Shown piece by piece: positions 8,093 to 62,368 of a stretch of DNA of 64,000 bases. The DNA is from Bacteroidales bacterium. Its GTDB lineage: Bacteria > Bacteroidota > Bacteroidia > Bacteroidales > P3. The first letter of the stretch is position 1. Each line of letters begins with the position of its first letter. The DNA lies in contig JAFROL010000024.1 of the NCBI GenBank assembly GCA_017429685.1, positions 87,790 to 151,789 of the forward strand. Direction: 5' to 3'. Position numbers and translations under genes: made by a program. The notes beneath the pieces are model-generated. The model had not been told where the DNA came from and did not search any database. It saw only the letters and a list, made by a program, of their open reading frames with translations.

Positions 8093-8161
8093 GTTCCAAG
8101 GCAGTTCTTATATCGTTCTTATATTGCCGATATAAGAACGATATAAGAACTGCCTTGGAAC
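8093..8161. repeat. Perfect palindrome with 32-bp arms made of 11-nt units
   Basis: Arms 8093-8124 and 8130-8161 are exact reverse complements around a 5-nt loop (TGCCG). Each arm contains two successive units of GTTCTTATATC type. It lies between the convergent TonB-type gene and panC, in a 319-bp gap that otherwise holds only the panC terminator. Confidence 0.9.
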
Positions 8162-29978: not shown

Positions 29979-30113
29979 GTGGTCCTGGACGACTCTTCGC
30001 TGGAGGTCCCGGCCGGCTTAAAAGGCTTTGAGACAATGAGATTCGTAAGCAAATATGGCCAGCTGTTCTGGCTTCACAACGTCGCAATCACCTGGGTTGC
30101 CCCAGAACATTAA
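29979..30113 (+). CDS. Possible small protein in the leader of the lipoprotein gene
   Basis: From a stop at 29952 the frame 29955-30113 is open and protein-like: ALFQGTEVVLDDSSLEVPAG, then LKGFETMRFVSKYGQLFWLH, then NVAITWVAPEH and TAA. Codon choice is like that of nearby genes, with mostly G or C in third positions up to the end. The only ATG is internal (30036, giving 25 residues); GTG 29979 gives 44 residues and is the start shown. It begins right after a promoter, so either a non-ATG start is used or this is the 3' part of a truncated gene that has become a leader. No family is recognised. The lipoprotein gene starts 33 bases after its stop. Confidence 0.4.
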   Translation: MVLDDSSLEVPAGLKGFETMRFVSKYGQLFWLHNVAITWVAPEH

Positions 30114-30146
30114 TTAATTTATTTTAAAATCCTTAAAAACAAACAG

Positions 30147-30548
30147 ATGATGAAAAGAACCGTAGCAATTATGCTGGCCTTCTTCGTTGCCGGCTCAATC
30201 GCCCTCGTGGGATGCGGCGGCAGCAGCGCGCCGAGCAAATCCGACAGCCCCAAGGATGTCGTGGAACAAGTGTCAAACCTCTTGGTCAAAGGCGACCTGG
30301 AGAAGTCCCTGAACTTCTACGATGGTGTAGCCGACGAGGATAGCAAGGCCTTACTTCTCGGTCTTATGCAGATGGGTATGGACGCCACCCAGGGCCTCAA
30401 AGCATTCGAAATCCTTGAGGAAACCATCGCCGAGGACGGCACCACTGCCAAGGTGAAAGTGAAATACACCTATGGTGACGACACCGAAAAGACTACTACC
30501 GAAAACCTTGTCAAGACCGACAGCGGCTGGAAGTTGAAAGTGATATAG
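30147..30548 (+). CDS. Small lipoprotein, DUF4878-like
   Basis: The 133-residue product has a type II signal peptide with lipobox LVGC (Cys about residue 23) and a mature domain of about 100 residues: SPKDVVEQVSNLLVKGDLEK, LQGLKAFEILEETIAEDG-like helices, then strands TTAKVKVKYTYGDDTEKTTT and KTDSGWKLKVI. This is the NTF2-like (cystatin-like) fold of the DUF4878 lipoproteins common in Bacteroidota. The ligand is unknown. It is transcribed from the promoter at 29910-29941, after the possible small ORF, and followed by a strong terminator. Confidence 0.8.
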   Translation: MMKRTVAIMLAFFVAGSIALVGCGGSSAPSKSDSPKDVVEQVSNLLVKGDLEKSLNFYDGVADEDSKALLLGLMQMGMDATQGLKAFEILEETIAEDGTTAKVKVKYTYGDDTEKTTTENLVKTDSGWKLKVI

Positions 30549-30572
30549 TTTCAGCGAACTATCCTCACCCCC

Positions 30573-30617
30573 AGAGCCCTACGTCGCAAACTGCGCAGCG
30601 TAGGGCTCTGTTTTTTT
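30573..30617 (+). terminator. Rho-independent terminator of the lipoprotein gene
   Basis: AGAGCCCTACG (30573-30583) pairs with CGTAGGGCTCT (30599-30609), followed by GTTTTTTT. Confidence 0.85.
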
Positions 30618-30703
30618 GTCTTTTCTGTCACCCTGCTTTTCGTCGCGCAGCAAAATACGTTTTTTTAGGCATACTTAATGCATTGATTCACACCACTTGC
30701 TTC

Positions 30704-30802
30704 GCCCGTTGTACGCTATATGTACGGTATATGTACGGTATTTGTACGCTTCGAAAGCGTACAAATACCGTACATATACCGTACATATAGCGTACAACGG
30801 GC
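30704..30802. repeat. Perfect 48-bp-arm palindrome made of 11-nt units, copy 1
   Basis: Arms 30704-30751 and 30755-30802 are exact reverse complements around the loop CGA. The left arm reads GCCCGTT, then GTACGCTATAT, GTACGGTATAT, GTACGGTATTT and GTACGCTT. It lies between the convergent lipoprotein and methyltransferase genes, just outside the repeat that brackets the restriction-modification pair. A second copy is at 49006-49112. Confidence 0.95.
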
Positions 30803-30820
30803 AGGGAAGGTGTGTCAAAA

Positions 30821-30971
30821 AAAGACAGCAGCGACAAATTTGCCGCTGCTGTCTTTCGTGTGTTTTTATTGTTTGTCTACGGCCGCAGCAATGCGGCCGT
30901 AGTGTTATTTTTGATGACCTCTAAAATTCGTTTTAATTCGTGTTTTGCTTGCAAAACAAAATTGATGTTTT
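30821..30971 (+). repeat. Direct repeat bracketing the R-M genes, copy 1
   Basis: This 151-bp unit has three parts: a hairpin AAAGACAGCAGCG with its complement CGCTGCTGTCTTT; a second perfect hairpin at 30877-30902; and an AATTCG-rich 56-nt stretch (30916-30971) identical to 33307-33362. It ends six bases before the methyltransferase stop. The hairpins plus T-runs could also act as terminators. Confidence 0.9.
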
Positions 30972-30976
30972 TTGTG

Positions 30977-31924
30977 TTAACCCATCAGAAACGGTAGAGA
31001 CTCGTCTGCTGCTGATTCGCAGCACATTGATATTCCCAATTGTGTATCCTCAGCCTTCACGATGTCGGGTATTTTGTTACGATAGGTAGAGAAAGTTTTA
31101 GGGTCTTCAATTTCTTCGCGGCGTGCACGGCTGATGGCGGCAAACGCCTCCTCTCGTTCAATGCCGAGATAGCGGCGCCCCAACAAGTTTGCAGCGATGC
31201 CAGTTGTGCTGCTGCCTGCAAAAGGGTCGAGGATCCACGCGCCGGGTTCGGTAGATGCTAGAATTATACGGCTTAGCAATGCAAGGGGCTTCTGTGTCGG
31301 ATGCTTTGTGCATCTTTTCTCCCACGGGGCAATGGCCGGCAGTCGCCACACATCGGTCATCTGCGTGTCACCATTTATGTGTCGCATCAGTTCGTAGTTG
31401 TAGTAGTGTGGCGCTTTTTGCGTCTTGCGGGCCCAGATGATGAATTCGGTGCTATAGGTGAAGTAGCGGCACGAGATGTTGGGTGGAGGATTGGTTTTCG
31501 CCCACGTGATTACATTAAGAATCTTGTATCCCAGCTGTGTTAGGCAGTTGGCAACGGAAAAAATGTTGTGATATGTGCCGCTAATCCAGATGGTCCCTTT
31601 GTCCTTCAGTTTGTCTCGGCACAAAGACAGCCATTGAAGATTGAAACTGTTGATTTCATCGGGCGACATACCTTTGTCCCAATCGCCTTTGTTGACGCTG
31701 ACTATCTTGCCGCTCTGCACACTGATGCCGCCATTCGATAAGAAATAAGGCGGGTCGGCAAAAATCATATCGAATTTGAAGCTGAATTGCGGTAGCAGTT
31801 CGAATGTGTCGCCGCAAAGCAGATTGAAATCGTGGTTTAGAGACGCATAATACGGTTTTAACGTCGATTGATGTTCTGACAATTGACCATCTTTGGTCAA
31901 AAGTTTTATAACACTTTTGTCCAT
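30977..31924 (-). CDS. Site-specific adenine DNA methyltransferase (beta class) of a type II R-M pair
   Basis: The 315-residue product has motif IV DPPY at residues 57-60 (FDMIFADPPYFLSNGG) and later motif I DPFAGSSTTG at 231-240, the order of beta-class N6-adenine or N4-cytosine methyltransferases. HPTQKPLALLSRII precedes motif I as in this class. The segment GKIVSVNKGDWDKG and TIWISGTYHNIF resembles the M.DpnA/M.HinfI-like group; DPPY favours adenine. The target site cannot be read from sequence. An upstream extension to 32002 is open, but ATG 31924 begins the conserved part, and the extension overlaps an inverted repeat. The probable endonuclease gene lies 269 bases upstream on the same strand. 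Both lie between direct repeats, and the stretch looks more AT-rich than its neighbours, so acquisition is likely. Confidence 0.88.
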   Translation of the reverse strand: MDKSVIKLLTKDGQLSEHQSTLKPYYASLNHDFNLLCGDTFELLPQFSFKFDMIFADPPYFLSNGGISVQSGKIVSVNKGDWDKGMSPDEINSFNLQWLSLCRDKLKDKGTIWISGTYHNIFSVANCLTQLGYKILNVITWAKTNPPPNISCRYFTYSTEFIIWARKTQKAPHYYNYELMRHINGDTQMTDVWRLPAIAPWEKRCTKHPTQKPLALLSRIILASTEPGAWILDPFAGSSTTGIAANLLGRRYLGIEREEAFAAISRARREEIEDPKTFSTYRNKIPDIVKAEDTQLGISMCCESAADESLPFLMG

Positions 31925-31992
31925 TGTAGCAGTTTTGATGTCTGCTACAAGCCTATTAGGCTCTCTCAGGGCACAAAATATGCGGGCAATGA

Positions 31993-32122
31993 TTGCTCGC
32001 ATTGAGGCCCTAGGAAAGCCTGGTATAGGTCAAATCACGCCCGCATATACGGTCGTTTCCAGATTTGCTTACCCTTATACCATTCTTTTGAAATTTCCTA
32101 GGTTTCAATGCGAATAGAGCAA
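31993..32122. repeat. Imperfect inverted repeat between the R and M genes
   Basis: Four blocks pair in nested order: 31993-31998 with 32117-32122, 31999-32005 with 32105-32111, 32009-32017 (CCTAGGAAA) with 32094-32102, and 32021-32027 (TGGTATA) with 32076-32082. The centre is about 48 nt. It lies in the leader of the methyltransferase gene. Confidence 0.65.
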
Positions 32123-32193
32123 ATAGCAAACGTTTGTTTTAATATTTACGAATAAATTATGTTTCTTATGTTGTTTAGATTTAAAGATTTTAT

Positions 32194-32937
32194 TTATAAA
32201 ATGAATTCCATATTTTGTCTTTGTAGTTCCTGATCATATTGCTTGTCAAGCGATGCATAACTTAAAAAGTCTACTCGTTTGTTTTCTCGAAGTGCTTTAA
32301 ATGCATCATATCCCATCTTTGTAATAAATTCCAAGTGTCGTTTCTCGTCGGCTACAATAACCATACGAGCCGAAAAGTCCCTTAAATCATCAAATTTTAG
32401 CAGCGAGTTCTGTATATCTGTTGAATGCTCAACCTCATAAAAAGAATGTGGCATTTTGTGACTGTTGAACCAAATAACATCTATTGTTGAACTTCGTTCG
32501 ACAAGATCTGGGTATGAGTACGGTGGAATAGATTGTAATGTTCGAATTTCACCGAGTGGTGTTTTTAAGAATTTCTTATTCTTATCCTGATTTGGGACAA
32601 AGGTATCCAGATTTCTCATTCTTCCAATTTCAAGCAGAAGTCCTTGGTAATATGAATGATTGAAGGTCTTTATCTCTTCGGATTCCTTGTTTTTATCTGT
32701 CTGTTCAATTATGCCTTCCAACTCCAACTGTTTACGATGGGATTCGAGAGCATATAAGCCTGGTTTTATCTTGTATATACCTTTGGTCAGTTGCACAATT
32801 CGACGGACACTGGCAAATGGAGTCTTGGTTCCCCAAACACAATCTTCAATTTCAAAGATATGCTGATTGATTTGGTTTAGCGTGGCGACACCTCCAAGTT
32901 TCTCAATGGTTACTATTACTGCCTGTGCCTGAGTCAT
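32194..32937 (-). CDS. Probable type II restriction endonuclease (HTH plus PD-(D/E)XK-like)
   Basis: The 247-residue product has an N-terminal winged-helix-like part (about residues 1-65: AVIVTIEKLGGVATLNQINQ, VRRIVQLTKGIYKIKPGLYA) and a C-terminal domain with a PD-(D/E)XK-like site: Asp153 in STIDVIWFN and Glu168-Val-Glu170 in SFYEVEHSTDIQNSLLKF, then ARMVIVADEKRHLEFITKM. The D...ExE pattern on adjacent strands and the neighbouring methyltransferase support an endonuclease. The family name is not recalled with certainty. It is visibly AT-rich compared with the flanking genes. It is upstream of the methyltransferase gene, so the pair is probably co-transcribed from the promoter at 33069-33100. 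A solitary regulator of unknown type is the alternative. Confidence 0.65.
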   Translation of the reverse strand: MTQAQAVIVTIEKLGGVATLNQINQHIFEIEDCVWGTKTPFASVRRIVQLTKGIYKIKPGLYALESHRKQLELEGIIEQTDKNKESEEIKTFNHSYYQGLLLEIGRMRNLDTFVPNQDKNKKFLKTPLGEIRTLQSIPPYSYPDLVERSSTIDVIWFNSHKMPHSFYEVEHSTDIQNSLLKFDDLRDFSARMVIVADEKRHLEFITKMGYDAFKALRENKRVDFLSYASLDKQYDQELQRQNMEFIL

Positions 32938-33068
32938 AAACGATTCTCCTATGCATTCAATGGTATTTTATGTGGCGTTTGTTTTTTTGCTGTAGTTGTG
33001 TATATTGTATTTGTTTTCAGTTGTTTTGTATTGTTTCCGTATGCTCGTAGAGCACTATTTAATCAAAT

Positions 33069-33100
33069 GCAAAATTACGATTTTTTTTAGAATCACAAAA
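33069..33100 (-). promoter_or_regulatory. Promoter of the R-M genes
   Basis: On the minus strand: TTTTG (33096-33100), 18 nt, then TAATTTTGC (33069-33077). The leader to the endonuclease start at 32937 is about 125 nt. Confidence 0.7.
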
Positions 33101-33212
33101 TCAAATATTAACGACCAGCACTGCGTCACGCGGATGTTGCTATTGAAGGCCGGTGTTTTAGTTATGCTGTTCGGTTGTAAATTAGTCAGCTGGAGAGGCG
33201 CGGATAAAACAA

Positions 33213-33362
33213 AAAGACAGCAGCGGCGCTTTGCCGCTGCTGTCTTTTTTGTGTTTTTTTGTTTGTCTATGGCCGCATTGCTGCGGCCGTAGCATTATTT
33301 TTTGAGGACCTCTAAAATTCGTTTTAATTCGTGTTTTGCTTGCAAAACAAAATTGATGTTTT
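33213..33362 (+). repeat. Direct repeat bracketing the R-M genes, copy 2
   Basis: This 150-bp copy has the same three parts as 30821-30971 in the same orientation. The middle hairpin (33267-33292) has loop TTGC where copy 1 has GCAA, its reverse complement. The last 56 nt are identical. It ends 60 bases before the hutU stop, and similarity to the inverted copy near 11.9 kb continues to about 33400. Confidence 0.9.
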
Positions 33363-33421
33363 GTAGAATAATATTCGTTTTATTCGCTAAATTCGCGGTC
33401 AAAAATGAATTTTAGATGTTG

Positions 33422-35422
33422 TTAGAAGAGTCCTTCGAGGACGCTGTCGTCGACGAGGTTGGGCATCGTGACCTTGAGCTCAGGGCAGATCTCCATTGCG
33501 CGACGGATGGCGAACATTGCGCCTTCGTTGCGGGCCCAGCTGCGGCGGCTGATGCCGTTGTTGACGTCCCAGTGGAGCATCATCCGCAGGCGACGGTCGC
33601 AGGCTTCGCTGCCGTCGAGGACCATACCGAAGCCGCCGTTGATGACTTCGCCCCAGCCTACGCCGCCGCCGTTGTGGATCGATACCCACGTGGCGCCGCG
33701 GAAGCTGTCGCCGATGACGTTCTGGATGGCCATATCGGCCGTGCGGTTGCTGCCGTCGTAGATGTTGCTGGTCTCGCGGAAGGGGCTGTCGGTGCCGCTG
33801 ACGTCGTGGTGGTCGCGGCCGAGGACGATGGGTGCGCTGATTTCGCCCTTGCGGATGGCTTCGTTGAAGCGGGCAGCAATCTTGGTGCGGCCTTCGCAGT
33901 CGGCATAGAGGATGCGGGCCTGGCTGCCGACGACGAGGTGGTTCTCCTTAGCACCCTTGATCCACTGGATGTTGTCGTGCATCTGCTGCTGGATTTCGGC
34001 GGGAGCGGTCTTGGCTATCTCGCCGAGCACCTCCATAGCGATGTGGTCGCTCTTGTCGAGGTCTTCGGGCTTGCCGCTGGTGCAGACCCAACGGAAGGGG
34101 CCGAAGCCGTAGTCGAAGCACATCGGGCCCATAATGTCTTGTACGTATGAGGGATAGCGGAAAGCGCTGTGGTCGGCGTTCCAGATGTCGGCGCCGGCGC
34201 GGCTGCTTTCGAGCAGGAAGGCGTTGCCGTAGTCGAAGAAGTACATTCCCTTGGCGGTCAGCTTGTTGATGGCGGCGACGTGGCGGCGCAGGCTCTCCTG
34301 AACCTTCTCTTTGAAGAGTTCGGGCTGCTCGGCCATCATTGTTTTCGAGTCTTCGAAGCTGATTCCGACGGGATAGTAGCCTCCGGCCCAGGGGTTGTGG
34401 AGCGATGTCTGGTCGCTGCCGAGGTCGACGTGGATGCCCTTTGCGGCGCAGTATTCCCACAGGTCGACGACGTTGCCCTGGTAGGCGAAGCTGCGTGCCT
34501 GCTTGGCGGCGATGGCTTTGTTCACTTCAACAAAGAGCTCGTCGAGGTTGGCGTGGACCTCGTCGACCCAGCCTTGCTCGAAGCGCTTGTTGGTGGCTGC
34601 GGGGTTGATTTCGGCGGTGATACTGACTACGCCGGCGATGTCGCCAGCCTTGGGCTGTGCGCCGCTCATACCGCCAAGGCCGGCGGTGATGAAGAGCTTG
34701 CCTGCGGTGCCGCCACCGAGCTTGCGGGCTGCGTTGAGCACGGTGATGGTGGTGCCGTGGACGATGCCCTGCGGTCCGATGTACATATAGCTGCCGGCGG
34801 TCATCTGGCCGTACTGCGTTACGCCGAGGGCGTTGTAGCGCTCCCAGTCGTCGGGCTTGCTGTAGTTGGGTATCATCATACCGTTGGTGACGACCACGCG
34901 CGGAGCGTCCTTGTGGCTGGGATAGAGTCCCATCGGGTGACCGCTGTACATAACGAGGGTCTGCTCGTCGGTCATCTCGCTGAGGTATTTCATCACGAGG
35001 CGATACTGTGCCCAGTTCTGGAAGACGGCGCCGTTGCCGCCGTAGGTGATGAGCTCGTGGGGATGCTGTGCCACGGCGGGGTCGAGGTTGTTCTGGATCA
35101 TCAGCATAATGGCTGCTGCCTGGCGGCACTTGGCCGGATACTCCTCGATGGGGCGTGCGTACATCTTGTAGGTGGGACGCAGGCGGTACATATAGATGCG
35201 GCCGTATTTGCGCAGCTCTTCGGCAAATTCGGGAGCCAGCATAGCGTGGTCCTTGGGGTCGAAGTAGCGCAGCGCGTTGCGGATGGCCAGCTTCTTCTCG
35301 GCGGGCGTGAGGATGTCCTTGCGCTTGGGGGCGTGGTTTACAGTTGGGTCATAGGGTTGCGGTTCGGGCAGTGGATTGGGAATGCCCTGACGCAGTTCGT
35401 TCTGAAATTCTTCTAAGGTCAT
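33422..35422 (-). CDS. hutU: Urocanate hydratase
   Basis: The 666-residue product has the urocanase hallmarks: GGNGAVFQNWAQYRLVMKYL, the NAD-binding region ITAGLGGMSGAQPKAGDIAG, SDQTSLHNPWAGGYYPVG, and LGRDHHDVSGTDSPFRETSN with IHNGGGVGWGEVINGGFGMV. It converts urocanate to imidazolone propionate in histidine breakdown. It is about 100 residues longer than the 550-residue enzyme of Pseudomonas or Bacillus, as is usual for Bacteroidota urocanases. No hutH, hutI or hutG is in the window, so the gene stands alone here. Its 3' side is occupied by the R-M cassette with its direct repeats. Confidence 0.96.
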   Translation of the reverse strand: MTLEEFQNELRQGIPNPLPEPQPYDPTVNHAPKRKDILTPAEKKLAIRNALRYFDPKDHAMLAPEFAEELRKYGRIYMYRLRPTYKMYARPIEEYPAKCRQAAAIMLMIQNNLDPAVAQHPHELITYGGNGAVFQNWAQYRLVMKYLSEMTDEQTLVMYSGHPMGLYPSHKDAPRVVVTNGMMIPNYSKPDDWERYNALGVTQYGQMTAGSYMYIGPQGIVHGTTITVLNAARKLGGGTAGKLFITAGLGGMSGAQPKAGDIAGVVSITAEINPAATNKRFEQGWVDEVHANLDELFVEVNKAIAAKQARSFAYQGNVVDLWEYCAAKGIHVDLGSDQTSLHNPWAGGYYPVGISFEDSKTMMAEQPELFKEKVQESLRRHVAAINKLTAKGMYFFDYGNAFLLESSRAGADIWNADHSAFRYPSYVQDIMGPMCFDYGFGPFRWVCTSGKPEDLDKSDHIAMEVLGEIAKTAPAEIQQQMHDNIQWIKGAKENHLVVGSQARILYADCEGRTKIAARFNEAIRKGEISAPIVLGRDHHDVSGTDSPFRETSNIYDGSNRTADMAIQNVIGDSFRGATWVSIHNGGGVGWGEVINGGFGMVLDGSEACDRRLRMMLHWDVNNGISRRSWARNEGAMFAIRRAMEICPELKVTMPNLVDDSVLEGLF

Positions 35423-35569
35423 ATTATTTTATTTTTTAGTTTGTTTCTTCTTGCAGGCTGTTTCCGCGCCATTATGCAGTGTACGTACTGTTTGGGTGGT
35501 TTGGCATATCTGAAACGGCTATTGGCGGATATATGTGTAACGATGATATATATTAAATATTGTACTACG

Positions 35570-37486
35570 TTATTGTATTGTTGTCCGAGGGGTGTGCGAG
35601 CATCGGAAGGTTACGGAGATGTGTGGAGTGTTGGTTCGCGTGTTGCCGTCGGAGCGGATGCGAATGGATTGGGGTTTAGGCAAATCGGTGTTCCCGCAGA
35701 ACAGGGAGGCCAATTCGGAATAGGAGTTGACATAGGGAGAGACCCACAAACCGGACGACGCTGTTTCGTGTGAGAAGCGGTAGGTGTGGATGGTGCTGTC
35801 GGGCATCAGATAGTCGACATAGTAGATGTCGGGCTTGTAGAGTGCTTTTTTGAGAAATCCTGCGTAATTATGTTTGATTCCGACAGAGGCCTTCAGGATT
35901 CCATCGCGATGCTTTGGTACGGGTATCCATTCTTCAAAACCAGCTGACAGTGAGAGTATAGTGTCGTCGATAGGGGTGTAGTGCGAGCCGCCGTGGTGGA
36001 GAAGCATTCCGTACCACTGTCCCGAATCGGCAACAGAGTAGTTGGATAGGATGGAGTCTAATATGGCGGGCTCGTCGTTGAGTAGATAACGGCCGTCGAT
36101 GCTTATGAGGCCAAGGTCGTTGTCGTAGTTGGGTCTGTGGAAGATGATATATTGTACAGCCTCGTGGCTGCTGCTAAAATTGAGTGCAGCTTTGTGGTTG
36201 AGCCATAGGGTGTTGCCTGTTCCAAGTTCGACAGTGCAATGTGGTTGCCAGCGAAGGCTGTTGGCGCCGATAAAGACTTGTTCCCAAGGATAGCAGTCGG
36301 TGGTGCCGGAGCCTATGGTTTCCACAACATTGGGAGGCAGTTTTCGGGTGTTCAGAGCATTTGCTATGTACGATTGGCTCTCGTCGACGGTTTTCTTGTA
36401 GCCAATCACTTTGTCGAAGAGATTGCGTGGGCCGGCTGTCAAAATTTTTGAACTGTTGTAGTTGACGTCATTAATGGCAACATACAGCATTGCGACAGCG
36501 GCCAGAGAACAAATCACGGAGGGCCATTTGATGCGCTCTTGTGTCAGAAGGATGGTGGAAAGAAAACACACGGAGAAGTAGAGCAACTGCTTGAGGTGGT
36601 AGAAATCTTCACGGACAATGCCATACTTCCAGTTGGCGAAGAGAGGCAGAAGCAACAATAGGCACATCATTTTGCTCCAACGGCCCTTCGTCGTTAGCAG
36701 AAATGCCACAACAAAACACAGGTATAGAATAATCTTCCACATCTTGTGTCCATTGTAAAGCACCATAGCCTCGTTGTAGCCTTCAAAGAGATGTGTCATA
36801 CCGACATAGGCATAGAACATCCTTGGAAAGCTGTGCCATACGGCAAGCCCAACAAGAAGAAGCATAGCTGGAACGGCACCGGCAGTGACTGATGAAAAGC
36901 GCAGGTCCTTGTAGAGAATGATTATGAGTGTCCATCCGACGAAAACCACCATACAGGACTGCAGCCCTATCGACACTTTAATGCCGAACCCGAATATGGC
37001 CAGCAATGTGGCTAAAAGGAACCGCCAAACCGATTTCGTTTCTATCGCATAAAGGGTCAATAGGGCCACATTGAAAATCATCAATAAATCGATATTGGCG
37101 ACAAATGCGATGGGAATCAGTGCGACAACCGTCGCGAGCGTCGGAAGCGAGCGTCGTTGAGCCAGCCGGAGAGTCTGCCAAACAAGGCAGAATTTCAGCA
37201 AGGTGAAGAAGACCAGGAACAGGGCGTAGTGGCCATTGACGGCTACGGGTATGCGTAGCAAGGCCAAAGGCCCGTAGGGGTGGGTGAGTTTGGTAAGCGA
37301 TGCGTAGTCGTTGTCGAACAGGTAGTTGAATCCCCAAACGTAGGAAGGATCTAGTCCTACTCCGTGGTCGGGCTCGAAAGCCGGATAGGTGAGCAGAACC
37401 AGCATCAGCGACAAAATGGCTGTAAGCCATTGGCTGTTGTATGGCTTGCTGAAATATTCTTTTATATGTTCTATTCTTTCACGCAT
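35570..37486 (-). CDS. Polytopic membrane protein with soluble C-terminal half (GT-C-like)
   Basis: The 638-residue product has about ten or more hydrophobic helices up to about residue 340 (WLTAILSLMLVLLTYPAF, FLVFFTLLKFCLVW, LLATLLAIFGFGI, MLLLVGLAVWHSF), with an Asp-containing first loop (AFEPDHGVGLDPSYVWGFNY), and then about 290 soluble residues with beta-rich look, ending in SVTFRCSHTPRTTIQ. This layout, many helices with an acidic first loop then a large extracytoplasmic domain, resembles GT-C glycosyltransferases such as those working on polyprenyl sugar donors, but no family motif is certain. Two other polytopic proteins of similar plan are at 52360-54651 and 56850-58388. Its 3' gene neighbour is hutU, 147 bases away. 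Confidence 0.6.
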   Translation of the reverse strand: MRERIEHIKEYFSKPYNSQWLTAILSLMLVLLTYPAFEPDHGVGLDPSYVWGFNYLFDNDYASLTKLTHPYGPLALLRIPVAVNGHYALFLVFFTLLKFCLVWQTLRLAQRRSLPTLATVVALIPIAFVANIDLLMIFNVALLTLYAIETKSVWRFLLATLLAIFGFGIKVSIGLQSCMVVFVGWTLIIILYKDLRFSSVTAGAVPAMLLLVGLAVWHSFPRMFYAYVGMTHLFEGYNEAMVLYNGHKMWKIILYLCFVVAFLLTTKGRWSKMMCLLLLLPLFANWKYGIVREDFYHLKQLLYFSVCFLSTILLTQERIKWPSVICSLAAVAMLYVAINDVNYNSSKILTAGPRNLFDKVIGYKKTVDESQSYIANALNTRKLPPNVVETIGSGTTDCYPWEQVFIGANSLRWQPHCTVELGTGNTLWLNHKAALNFSSSHEAVQYIIFHRPNYDNDLGLISIDGRYLLNDEPAILDSILSNYSVADSGQWYGMLLHHGGSHYTPIDDTILSLSAGFEEWIPVPKHRDGILKASVGIKHNYAGFLKKALYKPDIYYVDYLMPDSTIHTYRFSHETASSGLWVSPYVNSYSELASLFCGNTDLPKPQSIRIRSDGNTRTNTPHISVTFRCSHTPRTTIQ

Positions 37487-37519
37487 ATATCTTGCAGAAG
37501 ATATATCTGCTTACCAATT

Positions 37520-39847
37520 TTATTTCAACGCTCCGATCGCCAGGTTGATGCCCACTTCGAGGCGAGGCATCAGTACCTTGTCGGCGGCGACATCCTTGCC
37601 GATGCCGTTGAGGCGGTAGCGGGCGTAGATGCCAATCCAGTCGCGCGTGATGCGTGTGGTGATGCCGTAGTTCCAGCGGTAGTCGGCCAGGACGTTGAGG
37701 TTGCGCAGGGTCTGTTTGCGCGTGTCGGCGATGTCGCCGCTGTGTTCGCCTTTCAGCTTGTAGACGTTGAAGCCCCAGTTGCCGTATACGCCGAGGTCCC
37801 AGTGCCAGCCGTTGTGGAAGACGCCGCAGGGGCGCAGGCGGATGCGCTGGAAGAGCTCGATGCCCAGTTCGCCGAGGTTGACTTTATGCTTGATGACGCC
37901 GTTGTCGAGCCAGCGCAGGTCGTCGTCCATTGCCATCAGCGTGTCGAGGCGGTTGGCAATGGTCTTGTCGAAGCGGAAACTGGTGTGGCCGTATTCGAAG
38001 GCGTAACCGATGGCGTAGGCTTTGGATAAATGCTTGACTTGGCGGAAGCCGATGCGCTTGGCGGGCGACCAGATGCGGGTCGACAGCTCGTCGCCGGAGG
38101 TGTTGATGGCTATGCCAAGCTGATAGTAGCTTTCTTTGATGGCACCGCCTTCATCCAGGCTGTAGCGGAAGTGGGTTTCGTCGGTTTGATCGAAATCGAC
38201 TGCTGGGTAGCAATAGGTAGTAAGAAATGCATTGGTGGAGTTCTTCACAGTGTATTCTGCAACATATCCATCCATCTGGGCGGTGATGATGTTGCCGCCG
38301 TCGAGGATGAGGGATTTGTCTGTAGTGAAGTCTTTCAGTTCAAGTTTCTGATAGTTTATGATTTCGCCGTTGGAATTGGTATTCTTTATAAAGATGCGAC
38401 ATTTTTTATAGTCCTTAAGGGGTACGATTGTCAGCGCGCTGTCGGTCTGGACGAACTTGAAGGTGGGCGTGGCGGGTTTGCGGTCGCCGGTGAAGTAGTC
38501 GGCCTGCGGCACGCCGTAGCCGTAGCTGTAGTCGCAGTAGGGGTAGAGGTCGGCACTCTTCTCGATTTCGTGGAAGAGCTGCATAGCCGTCAGGCCTGGC
38601 TTGGCTTGCAGGGCGCAGGCTGCGAAACCGGCCACGAGGGGACAGCTGAATGAGGTGCCGGGGACGACGTGATACTCTTCGTTGCTCTTGCCCGTGTTGG
38701 CGCTGCGGGCCCAGGCGAAGGCGGTGACGTTGGGCTTCTGGCGTCCGTCGGCGCTGGGGCCGAAGCTGCTGAAGCTGGTGCGCTGGTAGTCGGTAAGGCT
38801 CGGGTCGAGACCACCCACACAGAGCACGCTGTCGGCATCACTGGGGGTGATGATGGTGCGCCATTTTTTGTCTTCGCCCTCGTTGCCGGCGCTGTTGCAG
38901 ACGAGGATGCCCTTGCGGGCAGCCATATTGCCGGCTTTGGCCACGTAGCTCTGGCCGTTCATATCCTTAGTATAGTAGCGGTCTTTGCCGTAGCCGAGCG
39001 AGGAGCTGATGATTTGCGCGCCGTTCTTGTCAGCCCATTCGACGGCCATCTGCCACCAGACCTCTTCCTTGAAGGGTTCGGCCTCGATCTCGGTGCGTGC
39101 CAGCAGGTATTCGGCACCGGTAGCCATACCGAGGTCAACGTCGCCCTCGCGTCCGGCGATGCAGCCGAAAGTCATCAGGCCGTGGCTGTTCCAGCCGTAG
39201 ACATCCTCTTTCTTGTTGGGGAAGTTCCAGGTCTTGATGATGCGGTGCTCGTCGCGCACGTGCTTGAAGGCGGCGTGGGTGTTCACCTGCGGGAAACCGC
39301 CGTCGAAGATGGCGATGCGGATGCCCTTGCCGTTGATGCCCTTGGCGCGGAAGTACTTGCCGCCCATACGCTGCAGCTGGGCGTGGAGATGGGCGTTGAG
39401 GGCCGAGTCGGTGCCGGATTGCAAATCTGCCATAACATCGTTGCTTTCCGCTTTCCGCTTTCCGTTTTCCGCTAACTGCATATTTGCTTCAAGCATAACG
39501 ACTTCGCGGACGAAGGGAAGTTGCTTTATGCGGGCCACCTGGTCGGGCGTAGCTGTAACGGCCACGGCGTTGAACCAGCGGCTCTGGCCGAACATTTCGG
39601 TGCCGGATTGCAAATCCGTCACAACGGCGTCAATCTGCTGCACATAGCTGTCGTTGAGCGGGTAGTTTGTGATGTCGTAGAGGTCGGCGTTGTTCAGGCG
39701 GTAGCGTTCGATGGCCTTCTGGTCGAAGTAGCTGTAGGGGTCGAACGTGGTGCCTGCTTTGTCGGTCAGCATCACCCAATAGTGCGACTGGGCGTGCAGT
39801 TGGAAACTGGTAATTATCGCAAAAGCGATTAAGAAGATTTTTTTCAT
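37520..39847 (-). CDS. S8 subtilisin-like peptidase with probable C-terminal outer-membrane barrel, copy 1
   Basis: The 775-residue product has a signal peptide (KKIFLIAFAIITSFQLHAQ), an inhibitor-like propart (about 25-120) and a subtilase domain with catalytic Asp182 (IRIAIFDGGF), His222 (WNSHGLMTF), Asn318 (CNSAGNEG) and Ser399 (VPGTSFSCPLVAGF). After about residue 590 come alternating strands (AKRIGFRQVKHLSKAYAIGY, YRWNYGITTRITRDWIGIYA, MPRLEVGINLAIGALK) that look like an outer-membrane barrel; no T9SS sorting domain is present. So the peptidase may anchor itself. Residues 125-147 hold in-frame repeat insertions (AENGKRKAESN, DLQSGTD) missing from copy 2. The gene follows copy 2 by 24 bases on the same strand. 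Confidence 0.85.
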   Translation of the reverse strand: MKKIFLIAFAIITSFQLHAQSHYWVMLTDKAGTTFDPYSYFDQKAIERYRLNNADLYDITNYPLNDSYVQQIDAVVTDLQSGTEMFGQSRWFNAVAVTATPDQVARIKQLPFVREVVMLEANMQLAENGKRKAESNDVMADLQSGTDSALNAHLHAQLQRMGGKYFRAKGINGKGIRIAIFDGGFPQVNTHAAFKHVRDEHRIIKTWNFPNKKEDVYGWNSHGLMTFGCIAGREGDVDLGMATGAEYLLARTEIEAEPFKEEVWWQMAVEWADKNGAQIISSSLGYGKDRYYTKDMNGQSYVAKAGNMAARKGILVCNSAGNEGEDKKWRTIITPSDADSVLCVGGLDPSLTDYQRTSFSSFGPSADGRQKPNVTAFAWARSANTGKSNEEYHVVPGTSFSCPLVAGFAACALQAKPGLTAMQLFHEIEKSADLYPYCDYSYGYGVPQADYFTGDRKPATPTFKFVQTDSALTIVPLKDYKKCRIFIKNTNSNGEIINYQKLELKDFTTDKSLILDGGNIITAQMDGYVAEYTVKNSTNAFLTTYCYPAVDFDQTDETHFRYSLDEGGAIKESYYQLGIAINTSGDELSTRIWSPAKRIGFRQVKHLSKAYAIGYAFEYGHTSFRFDKTIANRLDTLMAMDDDLRWLDNGVIKHKVNLGELGIELFQRIRLRPCGVFHNGWHWDLGVYGNWGFNVYKLKGEHSGDIADTRKQTLRNLNVLADYRWNYGITTRITRDWIGIYARYRLNGIGKDVAADKVLMPRLEVGINLAIGALK
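39411..39436 (-). repeat. 26-nt direct repeat inside the S8 gene (second copy 39600-39625)
   Basis: GTGCCGGATTGCAAATC and following bases recur at 39600-39625 with three changes, 189 bases apart and in frame, giving DLQSGT twice. The core GGATTGCAAATCC is nearly palindromic. The paralogous gene has unrelated bases at the matching place (DMLSAT). Confidence 0.75.
39443..39472 (-). repeat. Period-7 purine-rich repeat inside the S8 gene
   Basis: On the minus strand the core CGGAAAACGGAAAGCGGA is followed by another AAGCGGAAAGC. It is translated as ENGKRKAES. Same repeat as 91-123 and 57011-57037. Confidence 0.7.
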
Positions 39848-39871
39848 TGTCTATTGCTGTTTTGTTTATTT

Positions 39872-42256
39872 TCAGAAAGATAATTGTACGCCGAGTTCCA
39901 GACGAGGCAGGTCAAGGCTGGGCTGGCTCATACGGTAGCGGCCGTAGATGCCTATCCAGTTCCAGACGAGGCGCGAGGTGAAGCCCCAGTTCCAATTGCT
40001 GGCGGGCTCGACTCCGTCGTAGATAGAGGTCTGTATCAGGGCGTTGTCGTTGTTTTCGGCTGCATTGTAGCGCACTGTGTAGCTGTTGCCGTGAGGGCCT
40101 CCGTAGATGCCGAGGTCCCAGTGCAGACCCTTCTTGTCGTTGCCCTTCTTGATGATGCGTATGCGCTGGAAAAGCTCGATGTTGGCGTTGTAGAACAGGA
40201 AGCGTTTTTTCTCGACATTGGTGAAATTGGTGAGCGAAAGGGTGTTGTCCCAGCCGTTGGCGGTGGCGGGGTCGTAGCGGAAATATTGTGTGTTCCCTTC
40301 AAATCCGATACCGACGCCGTACCATTTGTTGAAATGGCGCAAGAAGCGGAAGCCGATAGTGTAGGCATCGCTGTAGCGCATCGTGTAGGGGAAGAACCAG
40401 GAGATGCCGTATTGCAAATACAATTCGGACAGGTATTTCTGACCCACGCCCCAGTTGCTGACGTAGTTGTCGTTGATGTGGCGAGCACCGCGTTCGTTGT
40501 ATCCAGTCAGGATGCGGCCGGTGCTGTAGTGGATGAGGTAGTAGGGCTCTTTCTCAAAGTCGTTTTCGGCATAGGCAATCTGGTCGTCCGGCGAGAGTTT
40601 GTGCTGATTTGAAAAGCCATCGACGCAGGCCACGAGGGTCTTGTTGCCGATGTATGCTTTCGGAATGGCAATAGCCAGGCTGTCGTTGAAATCCAGCATT
40701 CCAATGTTGTAGTAGCGCTCGATGAGGCCGTTGGCGTCCTGCATCTTGAACATCACTGCATCCTCGCGGATGTCGCCGTCGTCAAGTCCGTCGATTTCCT
40801 GCTGCCAAGTGGCGGTTCTCGCCATTTGGGGATGAATCAGTATGTAGTCGCCATAGTCTTCGAACGCGAAAGTGGCGGCTTTCTCGATGATGCGCTTGTC
40901 CTCGTCGAGGAAGTAGCTGGCCTGCGGCACGCCGTAGCCGAAGGCGTAGTCGTAGTAGGGGTAGAGGTCGGCCGACTCTTCAATCAGCGCTTTCATCTGC
41001 ATTGCCGTAACGCTTTTTTGCTTGCGGACGGCCTGCATTGCGCAGGCGCAGAAACCCGTTGTCAGCGGCGACGAAAAGCTGGTGCCGGCGGCAAAGGTGG
41101 TGGCGGTGTCGTTGCCGCTGTCGGCGCATTCGGCATAGCCGAAGTTGCAGACGTTGGGTTTCATACGGCCGTCGGCTGTGGGACCGTAGCTACTGAAACT
41201 GATGTGGTTGTATGCTTTCAGCGATGGGTTGATGCCGCCCACCGACAGGATGCTGTCGGCATCTGCCGGAGCACCGATAATCTTCCAGTTCTCGTCGTCG
41301 CCCGAATTGCCGGCGCTGTTGCAGACCAGGATACCCTTGCGGGCAGCGAGGTTGGCGGCACGCGACACATAGCTGCGGCCGTCCATTTGCCAGGTGTAGT
41401 GACGGTCGCGGGTGTATCCTAATGAGCTGTTGATGATGTCGGCTCCGTTCTTGTCGGCCCATTCGGCAGCCTGTGCCCACCAGACCTCTTCCTTGTAGGG
41501 CTCGGGGTCTACCTCGGTCTTGGCCAGCAGGAAGGTGGCACCGGTGGCCAGACCCAGCTGGCGGTCGCCCATCTTGCCGGCGATGCAGCTCAGCACCATC
41601 GTGCCGTGCGAATGGTTGTCGTAGACGTTCTCCTCTTTGGTAGTGAAATTCCAAGTGGCTATGATTTGTCCGTTGTCGCGCAGATGCTTGAAAGCCTGGT
41701 GGGTGTTCACCGACTTGAAGCCTCCGTCGAAGACGGCGATGCGGATGCCTGTGCCGTCGAATCCTTTCTCTATAAACCGCTGTCCCTGCATACGATGCAG
41801 CTGTTGGGTCACTTGCTGCGAATTGAAAACGCCGCTTCCCGCAATCCCTGTTTCGGCATCTTTCCGTTCGGCAATAGCCATATCGTTGTCGAGCTGGATA
41901 ATCTCTTTGACGAAAGGCAGACGTCCGATGGCCTCTATCTGCTCGGCTGTTGCGGTAACGGCAACGGCGTTCAGCCAGCGGCTTTGGCCAAACACTTCGG
42001 TAGCGGACAGCATATCAGCTGCAACGATAGCGTCGATTTGCGCCACATAGCTGTCGTTGAGAGGATAGTTCGTGATGTCGTAGAGGTCGGCGTTGTTGCG
42101 CTGGTAGCGTTCGATGGCTTTCTGGTCGAAATAGCTGTAAGGGTCAAACGTCGTGCCGGCTTTGTCGGTCAGTGCCACCCAGTAGCTGTTCTGGGCGAAG
42201 GCTATGTTGGCAAACATAGCGCAGGTCAGGATTGTGAGAGTCAGTATTTTTTTCAT
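39872..42256 (-). CDS. S8 subtilisin-like peptidase with C-terminal outer-membrane barrel, copy 2
   Basis: The 794-residue product is a close paralogue of the next gene downstream. It has a signal peptide (KKILTLTILTCAMFANIAFA), subtilase residues Asp177 (IRIAVFDGGF), His217 (NHSHGTMVL), Asn at NSAGNSG and Ser393 (AGTSFSSPLTTGF). The last 190 or so residues are beta-strands in barrel style (YTIGFRFLRHFNKWYGVGIG, NIELFQRIRIIKKGND, NWNWGFTSRLVWNWIGIYGR) ending LDLPRLELGVQLSF with terminal Phe, the usual BAM recognition signal. No sorting domain of the T9SS type is seen. It is first in the tandem pair. recO lies 12 bases upstream on the same strand. Expected place: outer membrane, with protease outside or in the periplasm; the side is not known. 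Confidence 0.87.
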   Translation of the reverse strand: MKKILTLTILTCAMFANIAFAQNSYWVALTDKAGTTFDPYSYFDQKAIERYQRNNADLYDITNYPLNDSYVAQIDAIVAADMLSATEVFGQSRWLNAVAVTATAEQIEAIGRLPFVKEIIQLDNDMAIAERKDAETGIAGSGVFNSQQVTQQLHRMQGQRFIEKGFDGTGIRIAVFDGGFKSVNTHQAFKHLRDNGQIIATWNFTTKEENVYDNHSHGTMVLSCIAGKMGDRQLGLATGATFLLAKTEVDPEPYKEEVWWAQAAEWADKNGADIINSSLGYTRDRHYTWQMDGRSYVSRAANLAARKGILVCNSAGNSGDDENWKIIGAPADADSILSVGGINPSLKAYNHISFSSYGPTADGRMKPNVCNFGYAECADSGNDTATTFAAGTSFSSPLTTGFCACAMQAVRKQKSVTAMQMKALIEESADLYPYYDYAFGYGVPQASYFLDEDKRIIEKAATFAFEDYGDYILIHPQMARTATWQQEIDGLDDGDIREDAVMFKMQDANGLIERYYNIGMLDFNDSLAIAIPKAYIGNKTLVACVDGFSNQHKLSPDDQIAYAENDFEKEPYYLIHYSTGRILTGYNERGARHINDNYVSNWGVGQKYLSELYLQYGISWFFPYTMRYSDAYTIGFRFLRHFNKWYGVGIGFEGNTQYFRYDPATANGWDNTLSLTNFTNVEKKRFLFYNANIELFQRIRIIKKGNDKKGLHWDLGIYGGPHGNSYTVRYNAAENNDNALIQTSIYDGVEPASNWNWGFTSRLVWNWIGIYGRYRMSQPSLDLPRLELGVQLSF

Positions 42257-42268
42257 TTTGATGTGGGT

Positions 42269-43015
42269 TTATCTTAATACGGTGTGCAGAACTTCGTGCG
42301 AAGTGAAATTGTGAAAGTCGGACAGATGTATGTGATAGTATTCCAGTAGGTTGTTCAATGTCGTGCTGCGTTGCAATGCTGTGAGTTGCGGCTGAGGACC
42401 GTGGTTCATCGAGTGGGAAAGGCAGCTGTGGATATGCGAACTGGACGCTTTGTCTAAGAAGTATGCGGCGTTAGGGTTTGTAGCTGTTGTGTATGTCGAT
42501 GGAGCCGCCTGAAAACGTCCTTCCTTGAGGTTGAACAGGGGTTCTTGCTGGCTGTAGTTGTCCATAGGCTCGATGCCCAAATGGTGTGCTGTGTTTATCA
42601 GGAAGTTGATTGGCGCAGCCGATGTCTGTTCTTCGCTGTCGATATGGTTAAGCTCGTCGACAACGTAGTCGAAAAGCTCTTTGTTTTCCTCCTCTTCTTT
42701 CAATGACTTGTAAAGCACCTCGTCCATAAAAAACAGCAGGGCCATCTTCACACCGTCGTTTTGGATGTTGTTGTAGTGTGTGGCGGGACGCATCTCCTTG
42801 ATGTACTGTAGTTGTCGCTTTGAATTGTTGTAGACGGTCATATCCAGATGGCTCAGTGGCTGCAGCAGGTTTTGCTTTGCTTTCCCTTTGCTGCTGCGGA
42901 CGCCTTTGATGATGTACGAACACAGGCCCAGCTCGCGAGTAAACACCTTTGCGATGATGCTCGTTTCGCCGTATTTTGTTGTGTGTAGCACAAGGCCTTG
43001 TGTTGTCAGAACCAT
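42269..43015 (-). CDS. recO: DNA repair protein RecO
   Basis: The 248-residue product begins with the RecO OB-fold (MVLTTQGLVLHTTKYGETSI, then IAKVFTRELGLCSYIIKGVR) and continues with the helical domain (PLSHLDMTVYNNSKRQLQYI, NFLINTAHHLGIEPMDNYSQ). The zinc-finger cysteines of many RecO proteins are absent, as often in Bacteroidota. RecO loads RecA at gaps with RecF and RecR. It lies between porZ, 126 bases upstream, and the S8 pair, 12 bases downstream, all on one strand. Confidence 0.9.
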   Translation of the reverse strand: MVLTTQGLVLHTTKYGETSIIAKVFTRELGLCSYIIKGVRSSKGKAKQNLLQPLSHLDMTVYNNSKRQLQYIKEMRPATHYNNIQNDGVKMALLFFMDEVLYKSLKEEEENKELFDYVVDELNHIDSEEQTSAAPINFLINTAHHLGIEPMDNYSQQEPLFNLKEGRFQAAPSTYTTATNPNAAYFLDKASSSHIHSCLSHSMNHGPQPQLTALQRSTTLNNLLEYYHIHLSDFHNFTSHEVLHTVLR

Positions 43016-43027
43016 TGTCTTATATTT

Positions 43028-43140
43028 GATTTAACTTTAACCTTAACTTCAGATACAAAATGTATTGTCCCTTTAACTTCCCTTTAACTTCCCTTAACTT
43101 CCCCTTAACTTCCCTTATCACCCTTTAACTTCCCTTAACT
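43028..43140 (-). repeat. Period 10-11 array abutting the porZ stop codon
   Basis: On the plus strand CCTTTAACTTC or CCTTAACTTCC units follow each other at 43069-43140, broken once by TTATCACC, with looser TTTAAC units at 43028-43050. The porZ stop (43142-43144) immediately adjoins the array. The recO start lies 13 bases beyond its other end. Confidence 0.75.
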
Positions 43141-43141
43141 C

Positions 43142-45460: not shown

Positions 45461-45990
45461 CAGGCTTTGATGTTGTTCCTTGATTTGTGAAGCAGAAGGG
45501 TCTGGTATAGTATGGCCAGAATCCACGTGACGACGGTGCTGAGCAGCGCACTGAGCAGTATGCCGAAGAAGTCGCGTAGCGAGAAGACCAGCAGCAGGTG
45601 GTATATCAGGTTGAACGCCAGCAGCAGCAGGAACAGGTATAGTGCAAACTGCTGGTACGAGCCGCTGTACAGGCTTGGCATCTCGATGCCTTCGTCGTTG
45701 TCGTGTATTATGATCCTGTCGAGCCATATGCCGCGCAGGTATGCCACGGCGGTGCAGGCAAAGGTGTGGAAACCGAGCATATTGGTCGAAATGTCGACGC
45801 AGAGGCCTGTGAAGAAAGCTATCAGCATCATCGGAATGCGTCCCGTGGTGGTGGGCAGCATAGCTATGAAAAGCACGTATATGCAGGGGTTTATATATCC
45901 GCCCAGATAGATGTTGTTGAACACCAGCACCTGCAGCAGCACGAGCAGCAGGAATCGTCCTATATTTCTAAAAACCAATTGACTATTCAT
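45460..45990 (-). CDS. mreD: Rod shape-determining protein MreD
   Basis: The 176-residue product is hydrophobic with about five to six membrane helices (IGRFLLLVLLQVLVFNNIYL, PCIYVLFIAMLPTTTGRIPM, LYLFLLLLAFNLIYHLLLVF, LLSALLSTVVTWILAILYQT). The first helix, LQVLVFNNIYLGGYINPCIY, and its place right after mreC, overlapping it by 8 bases, support MreD, an inner-membrane part of the cell-wall elongation complex. Sequence conservation in MreD is low; the call leans on context. Its stop TGA overlaps the porZ start. No pbp2 or rodA follows, unlike the usual order. Confidence 0.85.
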   Translation of the reverse strand: MNSQLVFRNIGRFLLLVLLQVLVFNNIYLGGYINPCIYVLFIAMLPTTTGRIPMMLIAFFTGLCVDISTNMLGFHTFACTAVAYLRGIWLDRIIIHDNDEGIEMPSLYSGSYQQFALYLFLLLLAFNLIYHLLLVFSLRDFFGILLSALLSTVVTWILAILYQTLLLHKSRNNIKA

Positions 45991-46819
45991 CTTCTGCCTC
46001 CGTTATTCTCATCAGCGAGTCTTGCTCCGCCTTGAAATGGTTGTCTACTATATAAACGTGGTTCAAATTGTTGAAGTCGGTGGCCAGGCGGATTTTGATG
46101 TTGTAGAATCCGCTGCCTTGCACGCTGGTGAAGTCTTCGATATAACCCACGGCGATGCCTTCGGGGAAGTCGTTGGCGAGGCCGCTGGTCACGACGGTGT
46201 CGTTCTTGTAGAGCGGATAGGTCGTGGGGATGTCGATAAGAGTGGCGTAGCGGTAGTCGCCGCCTTCCCATATCAGCGAGCCTGTCGAGTTGGTACGTTT
46301 CAGCTTGACGCTGTGGCGGCTGTCGCTATGCAGGACCGGCATAATGGTCGAGAAGTTCTTCGTGGTGTTGACCACCACGCCGACAATGCCCTGCGGCGAG
46401 ATTACGGCCATATCCACGCGGACGCCCTGCGACGCGCCTTTGTTGATCATCATATAGTTCTTCGACTGGTTGTATGAGTTTTTGATTACCTGGGCGTCGG
46501 TGTACGAATAGCGCTGCTTGTACACCGTGTCGTTGACCTGGAAGACGCTGTCGCTGTACGAGATGTACGACGATGCCAGCTGTGCGCGAAGGTCGGCATT
46601 CTCGGCGGCCAGATATTCGTTCTCGGCCTTCAGTCCGAAATATCCGGTCACGGCCGACACGCCCTTGTGCCACGTTCCGGCAATGCGGTTTCCGACACGC
46701 ACAATGCGCGAACGCTGGTAGATGCTGTTTTGGACAATCAGCAGGGTGGCGATGATTTCCAGCAGAAGGAAAACCAGTGTGTGTGAGTATTTTTTTATGA
46801 ATTCGCCCAGTTTCTGCAC
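45983..46819 (-). CDS. mreC: Rod shape-determining protein MreC
   Basis: The 278-residue product has one N-terminal membrane helix (LVFLLLEIIATLLIVQNSI), a coiled-coil segment (about 68-85, LKAENEYLAAENADLRAQL) and the MreC beta-domains (YTDAQVIKNSYNQSKNYMMI, NKGASQGVRVDMAVISPQGI, VGVVVNTTKNFSTIMPVLHS, SGLANDFPEGIAVGYIEDF). MreC is periplasmic and organises the elongasome with MreD and MreB. gmk lies 101 bases upstream on the same strand. mreB is not in the window. Confidence 0.95.
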   Translation of the reverse strand: MQKLGEFIKKYSHTLVFLLLEIIATLLIVQNSIYQRSRIVRVGNRIAGTWHKGVSAVTGYFGLKAENEYLAAENADLRAQLASSYISYSDSVFQVNDTVYKQRYSYTDAQVIKNSYNQSKNYMMINKGASQGVRVDMAVISPQGIVGVVVNTTKNFSTIMPVLHSDSRHSVKLKRTNSTGSLIWEGGDYRYATLIDIPTTYPLYKNDTVVTSGLANDFPEGIAVGYIEDFTSVQGSGFYNIKIRLATDFNNLNHVYIVDNHFKAEQDSLMRITEAEDE

Positions 46820-46920
46820 GGTTTAGGGGTATGTTGTTTTTGATGGGTTGTTAATTGACAGGCAGTGATTTGACTATGTGTTTGTGTCGGTTGCGCCTTG
46901 TGGCTTAGGCTTTCGGGATG

Positions 46921-47487: not shown

Positions 47488-47505
47488 ATGAAGGATGTTT
47501 GTTTT

Positions 47506-48711: not shown

Positions 48712-48782
48712 ATCGTGTATTGTTGTTTTTCTATTGTATATAAGAGTATTACACACTTTTCGGGGTGTGCAAAACGATGTGT

Positions 48783-48791
48783 AAAATTACG
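48783..48791 (-). promoter_or_regulatory. -7-like element for the run from the Ala/Glu-rich protein onwards
   Basis: TAATTTTAC on the minus strand, 71 bases upstream of the start codon. The last G of the usual TTTG is replaced. Confidence 0.4.
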
Positions 48792-49005
48792 ATAAAAAAA
48801 TCAATGTATTTAAAAAGAGCAAAACTTTTTTCGACAATCTGTTGTGAACAATTGTTGCATCGGTCGGAATTGCCTGGTTTTTAGCTCTTGACGAGCCTTT
48901 GTGGGCCGATGCCGGCGGCTCTGCGTCGGGTTGCGGCAACGGTTTTTGCCACCACGATTGTCCCGAATTTTGTGGTTGGCATAAACGCCTGATAATCATT
49001 ACCTC

Positions 49006-49112
49006 CTTCGCCCGTTGTACGCTATATGTACGCTATATGTACGGTATTTGTACGCTTCCGAAGCGTACAAATACCGTACATATAGCGTACATATAGCGTA
49101 CAACGGGCGAAG
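49006..49112. repeat. Perfect 52-bp-arm palindrome made of 11-nt units, copy 2
   Basis: Arms 49006-49057 and 49061-49112 pair exactly around the loop CCG. The left arm reads CTTCGCCCGTT, GTACGCTATAT, GTACGCTATAT, GTACGGTATTT and GTACGCTT. It lies in the 638-bp divergent gap 48712-49349, which otherwise holds only promoter elements. Confidence 0.95.
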
Positions 49113-49271
49113 AAAGTGGGGCGGATTTTGGGCGAAAATGCCTTATTTTGGGTGAATGACGGAGGCGTTTTGGTGTTTCTGGCGGCGAAAGTCGGGGCGC
49201 TGTGTGTGGGGAACCGTTCACTCGCGAGACAATCATTTTAATGTGCGAGTGATGAAATACGGATTTTTTTG

Positions 49272-49280
49272 TATATTTGC
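49272..49280 (+). promoter_or_regulatory. -7 element for the M16 peptidase gene
   Basis: TATATTTGC, 69 bases upstream of the start. The leader carries the tandem 9-mers CGCAGAAAG (about 49299-49320). Confidence 0.55.
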
Positions 49281-62238: not shown

Positions 62239-62368
62239 CGCCGCATCTGCTCCGCCATTTCAACGTTTGTTTAACGTTCGTTCAACGTTACTTCTTCGAT
62301 TGTTCATCGAAGAAATAACGAAGAAGTAACGATGATGTAACGAAGAAGTAACGGCGAAATGGCGGAGC
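62239..62368. repeat. Imperfect palindrome built of 11-nt units
   Basis: Outer arms GCTCCGCCATTTC (62239-62251) and its exact complement (62356-62368). Inside, read in one sense, the left arm has the units GTTTGTTTAAC, GTTCGTTCAAC and GTTACTTCTTC. The right arm in its complement has GTTACTTCTTC, GTTACATCATC, GTTACTTCTTC and GTTATTTCTTC. So it has three units on one side and four on the other. Confidence 0.8.

Follow-up and report, generated by a model that had tools for sequence, protein, structure and literature searches.

The Bacteroidales genome to which the window belongs carries about 100 inverted arrays of 11-nt units, placed between genes about every 20 kb, and we read them, with a probability of roughly 40%, as one set of putative docking sites along the chromosome. 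This function, and the docking factor that would go with it, are putative and follow from sequence arrangement: cross-class even spacing, intergenic placement and some positions kept with differing units together form the pattern that interchangeable docking sites would show.

The window, which is the whole 64-kb stretch of DNA that was analyzed, holds four such elements at successive distances of 22.6, 18.3 and 13.2 kb. These are listed here with one flanking motif:

8093..8161, no strand: class-2 palindrome with 32-bp arms and loop TGCCG; inner units GTTCTTATATC twice; about 77 copies in the genome
30704..30802, no strand: class-1 palindrome with perfect 48-bp arms and loop CGA; units GTACGCTATAT-GTACGGTATAT-GTACGGTATTT-GTACGCTT; between convergent genes
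48982..49009, no strand: outer flank of the second class-1 palindrome, TGATAATCA...TACCTCCTTCGCCCG, a weak motif common to class-1 ends
49006..49112, no strand: class-1 palindrome with 53-bp arms; units GTACGCTATAT-GTACGCTATAT-GTACGGTATTT-GTACGCTTC; between divergent genes, upstream of an M16 peptidase gene
62255..62360 (about 62244-62373 at its widest), no strand: class-3 imperfect inverted array of 11-nt units like GTTACTTCTTC; 3 copies in the genome

The original prediction was framed around the two class-1 palindromes, and its description of them holds. Both lie at 30704-30802 and 49006-49112 and are built of 11-nt units starting GTAC. The arms of the first are 48 bp long without a mismatch around the loop CGA, while those of the second, 53 bp around a 1-nt loop as read here, are equivalent to the predicted 52 bp around CCG. 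The second unit is GTACGGTATAT in the former and GTACGCTATAT in the latter, and the opposite arm carries the same change in each. The frame of two palindromes proved too narrow, since a search of the same genome found 26 class-1 copies (52 matches at 26 places), and it did not take in the further unit classes, their regular spacing or the keeping of position despite a unit difference.

Inspection of the genome (G000; other G numbers denote other genomes and L numbers the loci or contigs examined) reveals several unit classes. A 21-mer typical of class 2 has 77 matches on each strand with one mismatch allowed, all of them exact among the 100 places listed; the list holds arms with at most one mismatch and captures a single arm at C2:30559, C12:83927 and C35:1612. 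Some class-2 arrays are one-sided, where one arm has four exact units in a row and the opposite arm has decayed. In C35 and C40 (332 kb), a unit-independent scan for arms of 20 nt or more found 15 palindromes, of which 14 consist of 11-nt units, and the corresponding scan of 360 kb of G121 found 11-nt units in 15 of 17 palindromes, with three further unit families. Palindromic arrays of 9-nt units also occur, TTAGGCNNN at L168 (G000:C40:58575-58647) and ACTAGTANN at L212 (G000:C46:68407-68468); they stand just past gene ends and are of a different kind from the 11-nt elements. Irregular 9-11 nt steps of CCCTTTAACTT(C) runs are found between genes at about 43068 in the window and at G000:C35:13289. 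Class 1 had no match in phage records, nor class 2 in plasmid records. Among viral contigs, 14 stretches match a loose GTAC pattern and 19 a GTCC pattern, with 0 matches to the class-2 21-mer; the matching viral sequences shown are tandem 11-nt arrays, with several GTACGCTATAT-like units in a row in L201 and L203.

When the classes are pooled, the elements are overdispersed and spaced evenly across unit classes. The pooled test compared 81 elements of classes 1-3 on 25 contigs (1.92 Mb, 56 gaps) with uniform placement; it covered 11-nt elements on contigs of known length up to C36 together with C40, C46 and C50 (the class-2 places listed end at C37), the two 9-nt arrays being set aside. The 56 gaps have a mean of 22.1 kb and a coefficient of variation (CV) of 0.46, as opposed to 0.87 under uniform placement. 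The smallest gap is 7.85 kb, whereas no minimum exceeded 3.67 kb in 50,000 simulations, and gaps below 7.5 kb number 0 versus 16.8 expected. The same distance holds between classes: with class 2 fixed, 0 of 21 class-1 or class-3 elements lie closer than 7.5 kb to a class-2 element, where 6.9 would be expected (P=1e-4). Restricting the null to intergenic sites on C35, C40, C46 and C50 (gaps between predicted genes no shorter than 100, 150 or 250 bp) left the result unchanged. The observed CV or minimum was reached in 0 of 20,000 such simulations; this set took in both 9-nt arrays but lacked the class-2 array at C46:71363, and a count with every array would contain one 3-kb gap. Because cross-class gaps behave alike, selection against same-class recombination was rejected as the sole cause of the spacing.

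Other genomes were analyzed in the same manner. Over the 360 kb of G121 the minimum gap is 10.4 kb (P 0.0005-0.0014 versus intergenic sites). The CV on its contig C2 was at first unremarkable against intergenic sites (P 0.49-0.73); with an 11-nt array at 126.9 kb added, the CV gives P=0.019 and the 10.4-kb minimum over 15 gaps gives P=0.0001. On a second G121 contig all 9 gaps among the ten places listed are at least 7.8 kb (P=0.004). In five other species, 1 of 16 gaps is below 7.5 kb (5.7 kb, in G133), as judged among the matches listed or single-class matches and from one scan.

The main rival to docking arrays is a mobile family resembling REPINs, in which a REP-associated tyrosine transposase, acting in trans, would copy the hairpins and target immunity, or selection against close pairs, would keep them at a distance. 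We consider this unlikely. Like the REPIN/REP and RAYT systems of Pseudomonas and E. coli, the palindromes comprise dispersed intergenic inverted pairs able to form hairpins, tens of near-identical copies and several sequence classes per genome. Moreover, one REP-associated tyrosine transposase gene (L070:2306-2875 on G000:C34; NF047646, 96.6 bits versus a cut-off of 80) stands about 200 bp from a class-2 copy, with a palindrome on one side only. By our own estimate, one gene beside one of about 106 elements would arise by chance about one time in ten. Matches to Y1_Tnp do not track the palindromes either, with 0 in G086, which has palindromes, and 4 each in G142 and G106, both of which match neither unit pattern. 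Two Y1 genes, in G121 and G133, have no palindrome within the surrounding 3.3 kb. A general association with tyrosine transposases was rejected, as matches occur with and without palindromes, which leaves the single REP-type gene near a class-2 copy as a lead. Unlike REPINs, the arms described here are chains of 11-nt direct units, and the aligned cores and ends inspected have no constant GTAG (or CGTC) end tag, their units starting GTAC, GTTC or GTCC. Finally, REPIN doublets are described in the available text of PMC3116915 as random in extragenic space, the opposite of the even spacing and mutual avoidance between classes of different sequence seen here.

The elements examined sit between genes, as judged by gene calls from our own hexamer model. 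On five scanned contigs with about 88% coding DNA, all 46 element centers (31 from G000, two of them 9-nt arrays, and 15 from G121) fall outside predicted genes, as do all 51 classified class-2 elements, a set that partly overlaps the 46; predicted ORFs overlap the edge of 2 of the 26 class-1 cores. Class 1 lies between divergent genes more often than class 2 (16 of 26 versus 12 of 51, P=0.002), the remaining class-2 contexts being 17 convergent and 22 tandem.

The gene context bears on a role at the RNA level, where the elements would be transcription terminators, insulators or dsRNA hairpins between genes. The frequent position of class 2 at gene 3' ends (the convergent and tandem contexts) is compatible with this, and so is the great stability of the hairpins. 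DNA folding energies are -59.3 kcal/mol for 30704-30802 and -65.4 kcal/mol for 49006-49112; each folds as a single hairpin with z of about -19, equaled by 0 of 200 dinucleotide shuffles. In contrast, the preference of class 1 for divergent pairs places it where neither gene should be transcribed through the element, and the window copy at 30704-30802 already lies between two separate terminator-like hairpins (2 found versus 0.7 expected by chance). A search of 30000-50000 in the window returned 0 Rfam matches at gathering score, and transcription does not predict even spacing. Taken together, an RNA-level role appears quite improbable. Right beside the same palindrome, at 30977-32937 in the window, an N6/N4 DNA methylase gene (PF01555) and an adjoining ORF, possibly a restriction-modification island, occupy a stretch that the syntenic G086 contig lacks.

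Most class-1 copies have near-identical arms. Comparison of their 97-bp cores (24 copies fetched and the 2 window copies) indicates that the three variable units are equal in both arms in 18 of 26 copies, which together present 12 different left-arm unit combinations. When whole right arms were redealt among the copies, matched copies averaged 3.1 and never numbered more than 11 in any of 20,000 shuffles. The other 8 copies have mismatched units, the worst with 10 mismatches in 48. Outside the cores, a weak motif, approximately AACCAG..CTT.. followed by CACCTTCTTCGCCC, recurs on both sides (52 ends); visual comparison suggests a similar motif in another species and at certain ends of the other classes, homology across classes being a by-eye judgement.

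To follow the arms between species, 12 loci were paired with the close relative G086, drawn from 14 of 20 G086 palindromes examined; of the other six, L119 abuts G000 DNA that has no class-1 element and five have no flank in the G000 DNA compared. Units are perfect and identical in the two species at five of the 12 loci; at a sixth they are imperfect but identical except for one change. At two loci the species differ by a change of unit that both arms share. Another three loci have perfect arms in just one species, and the last is imperfect in each, with different units. The loop is inverted relative to the flanks, by our own reading, at 3 of 12 loci (the window copy at 30704-30802, L020 and L024). 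The available text of PMC8604942 describes two outcomes when the template switches from arm to arm, homogenization of the arms and inversion of the spacer, and that of PMC8794818 is a further source on the mechanism. The original prediction held that the arms are kept perfect either by selection on structure or by a copying process that rewrites one arm from the other, and proposed counting paired against unpaired changes. Two of the 12 loci have a paired unit change, in favor of template switching, and five are imperfect in at least one species, three of these being perfect in the other, which counts against it. Given the paired unit changes, the inverted loops and the homogeneity of the arms, the arm match is best explained by arm-to-arm rewriting with decay in between. 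A strict selection for perfectly paired arms is not supported, because 8 of 26 copies and 5 of 12 paired loci (imperfect in at least one species) have decayed arms. Loss of SbcD was considered as a reason for palindrome stability and rejected, as an SbcD gene scores above the cut-off in G000 itself, as well as in G121, G133 and G069; none was detected in G086 or G116, two genomes that are 89% complete.

That template switching alone creates and keeps perfect inverted repeats, which would survive only in untranscribed DNA and serve no cell-level function, is in our judgement improbable. The paired changes, loop inversions and homogenized arms fit such a process, as does the intergenic position of the elements examined. 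It accounts for arm upkeep only, however, and leaves unexplained why the same units recur in 26 and about 77 dispersed copies, why these are evenly spaced across classes and why positions are kept with a differing unit.

The distribution of the units among relatives is patchy, which counts in favor of a mobile family. Within the genus, 10 of 120 genomes, G000 among them, contain the GTAC unit pattern, with up to 184 forward matches (reversed control: one match in one genome), and the GTCC pattern occurs in 14 of 120 (control: none). Across the order, a looser pattern matches 11 of 393 genomes, including G000 and G121; its reversed control matches 5 of 393, so single matches are no evidence and only the genomes with several matches (G173, G209, G398 and G230) count. 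GTNC-type 11-nt arrays are seen in these other genera (G209 C19, G173, G230 and G398), with more than 10 tandem units in G209. No long 11-nt palindrome was present in samples of G002 (60 kb), G016 (60 kb), G115 (80 kb), G141 (40 kb), G036 (80 kb) and G102 (60 kb). G002, G036, G102 and G141 have few GTAC or GTCC matches elsewhere, and the sampled DNA of G115, G141 and G036 contains a weaker tandem array. G116 has four 11-nt palindromes in 140 kb, all with 2-5 mismatches. With related species of the genus having few or perhaps no such palindromes, any need for them is not universal.

Comparison of syntenic loci shows that some positions are conserved between species while the unit differs, which sets these elements apart from REPINs. 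At one intergenic spot of the M16-peptidase locus, the unit is GTACGCTATAT in G000, GTACAGTATAT in G069 and GTCCGCTTGTT in G121. The 15 G121 elements over 360 kb were placed by best matches read by hand, and 6 have no convincing flank in the G000 DNA compared. Of the four that are fully syntenic, three have a G000 element of another class between the same two genes; at the fourth, the two flanking genes abut in G000 without an element. For two more, the flanks map to two G000 elements but with their partners swapped, a rearrangement located at elements. A single flank of another G121 element abuts a G000 element, and the flanks of the last two lie beside no G000 element. The gene-order breakpoints at C2:216.5 and 252.3 kb in G121 versus C40:13.6 kb and C15:19.0 kb in G000 look as if two palindromes had recombined. 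At C40:109.26 kb an element is absent from G000, G086 and G069 and present in G121 and G133; the two states differ by a whole segment, about 290 bp long and centered on the palindrome. Such presence or absence of a whole segment favors a REPIN-like family; against it, no target duplication is visible at this one empty site, compared among five genomes of diverged species.

These same loci address whether the architecture is an artifact of a metagenome-assembled genome. Contigs often stop in or near palindromes (C1, C15 and C35 of G000, several of G086 and G065), and the M16-peptidase locus of G065 is an N gap with palindrome ends on either side. In contrast, the genomes of several species have like architecture built of different sequences, in some cases at the same loci, which renders an artifact extremely improbable.

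Under the docking reading, the units would be binding sites of a sequence-specific protein, or of paralogues with one per unit class. The putative factor would need about one array per 10-40 kb and may fold, anchor or partition the chromosome or bound supercoiled domains. As it would require the unit rather than the neighborhood, the unit could be swapped across copies as factor specificity drifts. Arms would be kept alike mainly by replication template switching that rewrites one arm from the other; conversion between copies possibly adds to this, and selection for unit number may help. Counting against this reading are the relatives with few such palindromes, the positions left empty in some species (C40:109.26 kb), the one-sided class-2 arrays, the unremarkable CV on G121 C2 before the 126.9-kb array was added, and the 5.7-kb gap.

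Known landmark systems offer partial parallels. Noc-binding sites and matS are short sites distributed over the chromosome in tens of copies, each recognized by one protein; they are single short palindromes of constant sequence. The elements described here likewise comprise tens of scattered sites with a non-random chromosomal distribution, yet they differ in being long inverted arrays of several unit classes with fast turnover, for which a cognate protein is putative. MITEs and the P. gingivalis-type repeats of Bacteroidales are non-coding and intergenic, with partly conserved ends around an internal tandem array. The present elements share these features but have a core better conserved than the ends, are evenly spaced and have no visible target duplication at the one empty site in diverged species. 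The replacement of units is comparable, in the proposed reading, to fast centromere turnover, here spread along a bacterial chromosome.

Palindromes dispersed in bacterial genomes are usually viewed as selfish or as local regulators. Elements of different sequence that stay at least about 8 kb apart, and some of whose positions hold another unit in a related species, are hard to reconcile with a selfish element. If they are a mobile family after all, cross-class target immunity would be required, for which we know of no precedent. In the freely accessible portion of the literature, we found no description of evenly spaced 11-nt-unit palindromes. It is possible, if doubtful, that they represent a previously undescribed system of chromosome organization in Bacteroidales, with about one array per 20 kb and a fast-evolving putative factor, where species would replace the unit and keep the positions. 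The minimum distance and the retained positions would make chromosome organization by extragenic palindromes a directly testable question.
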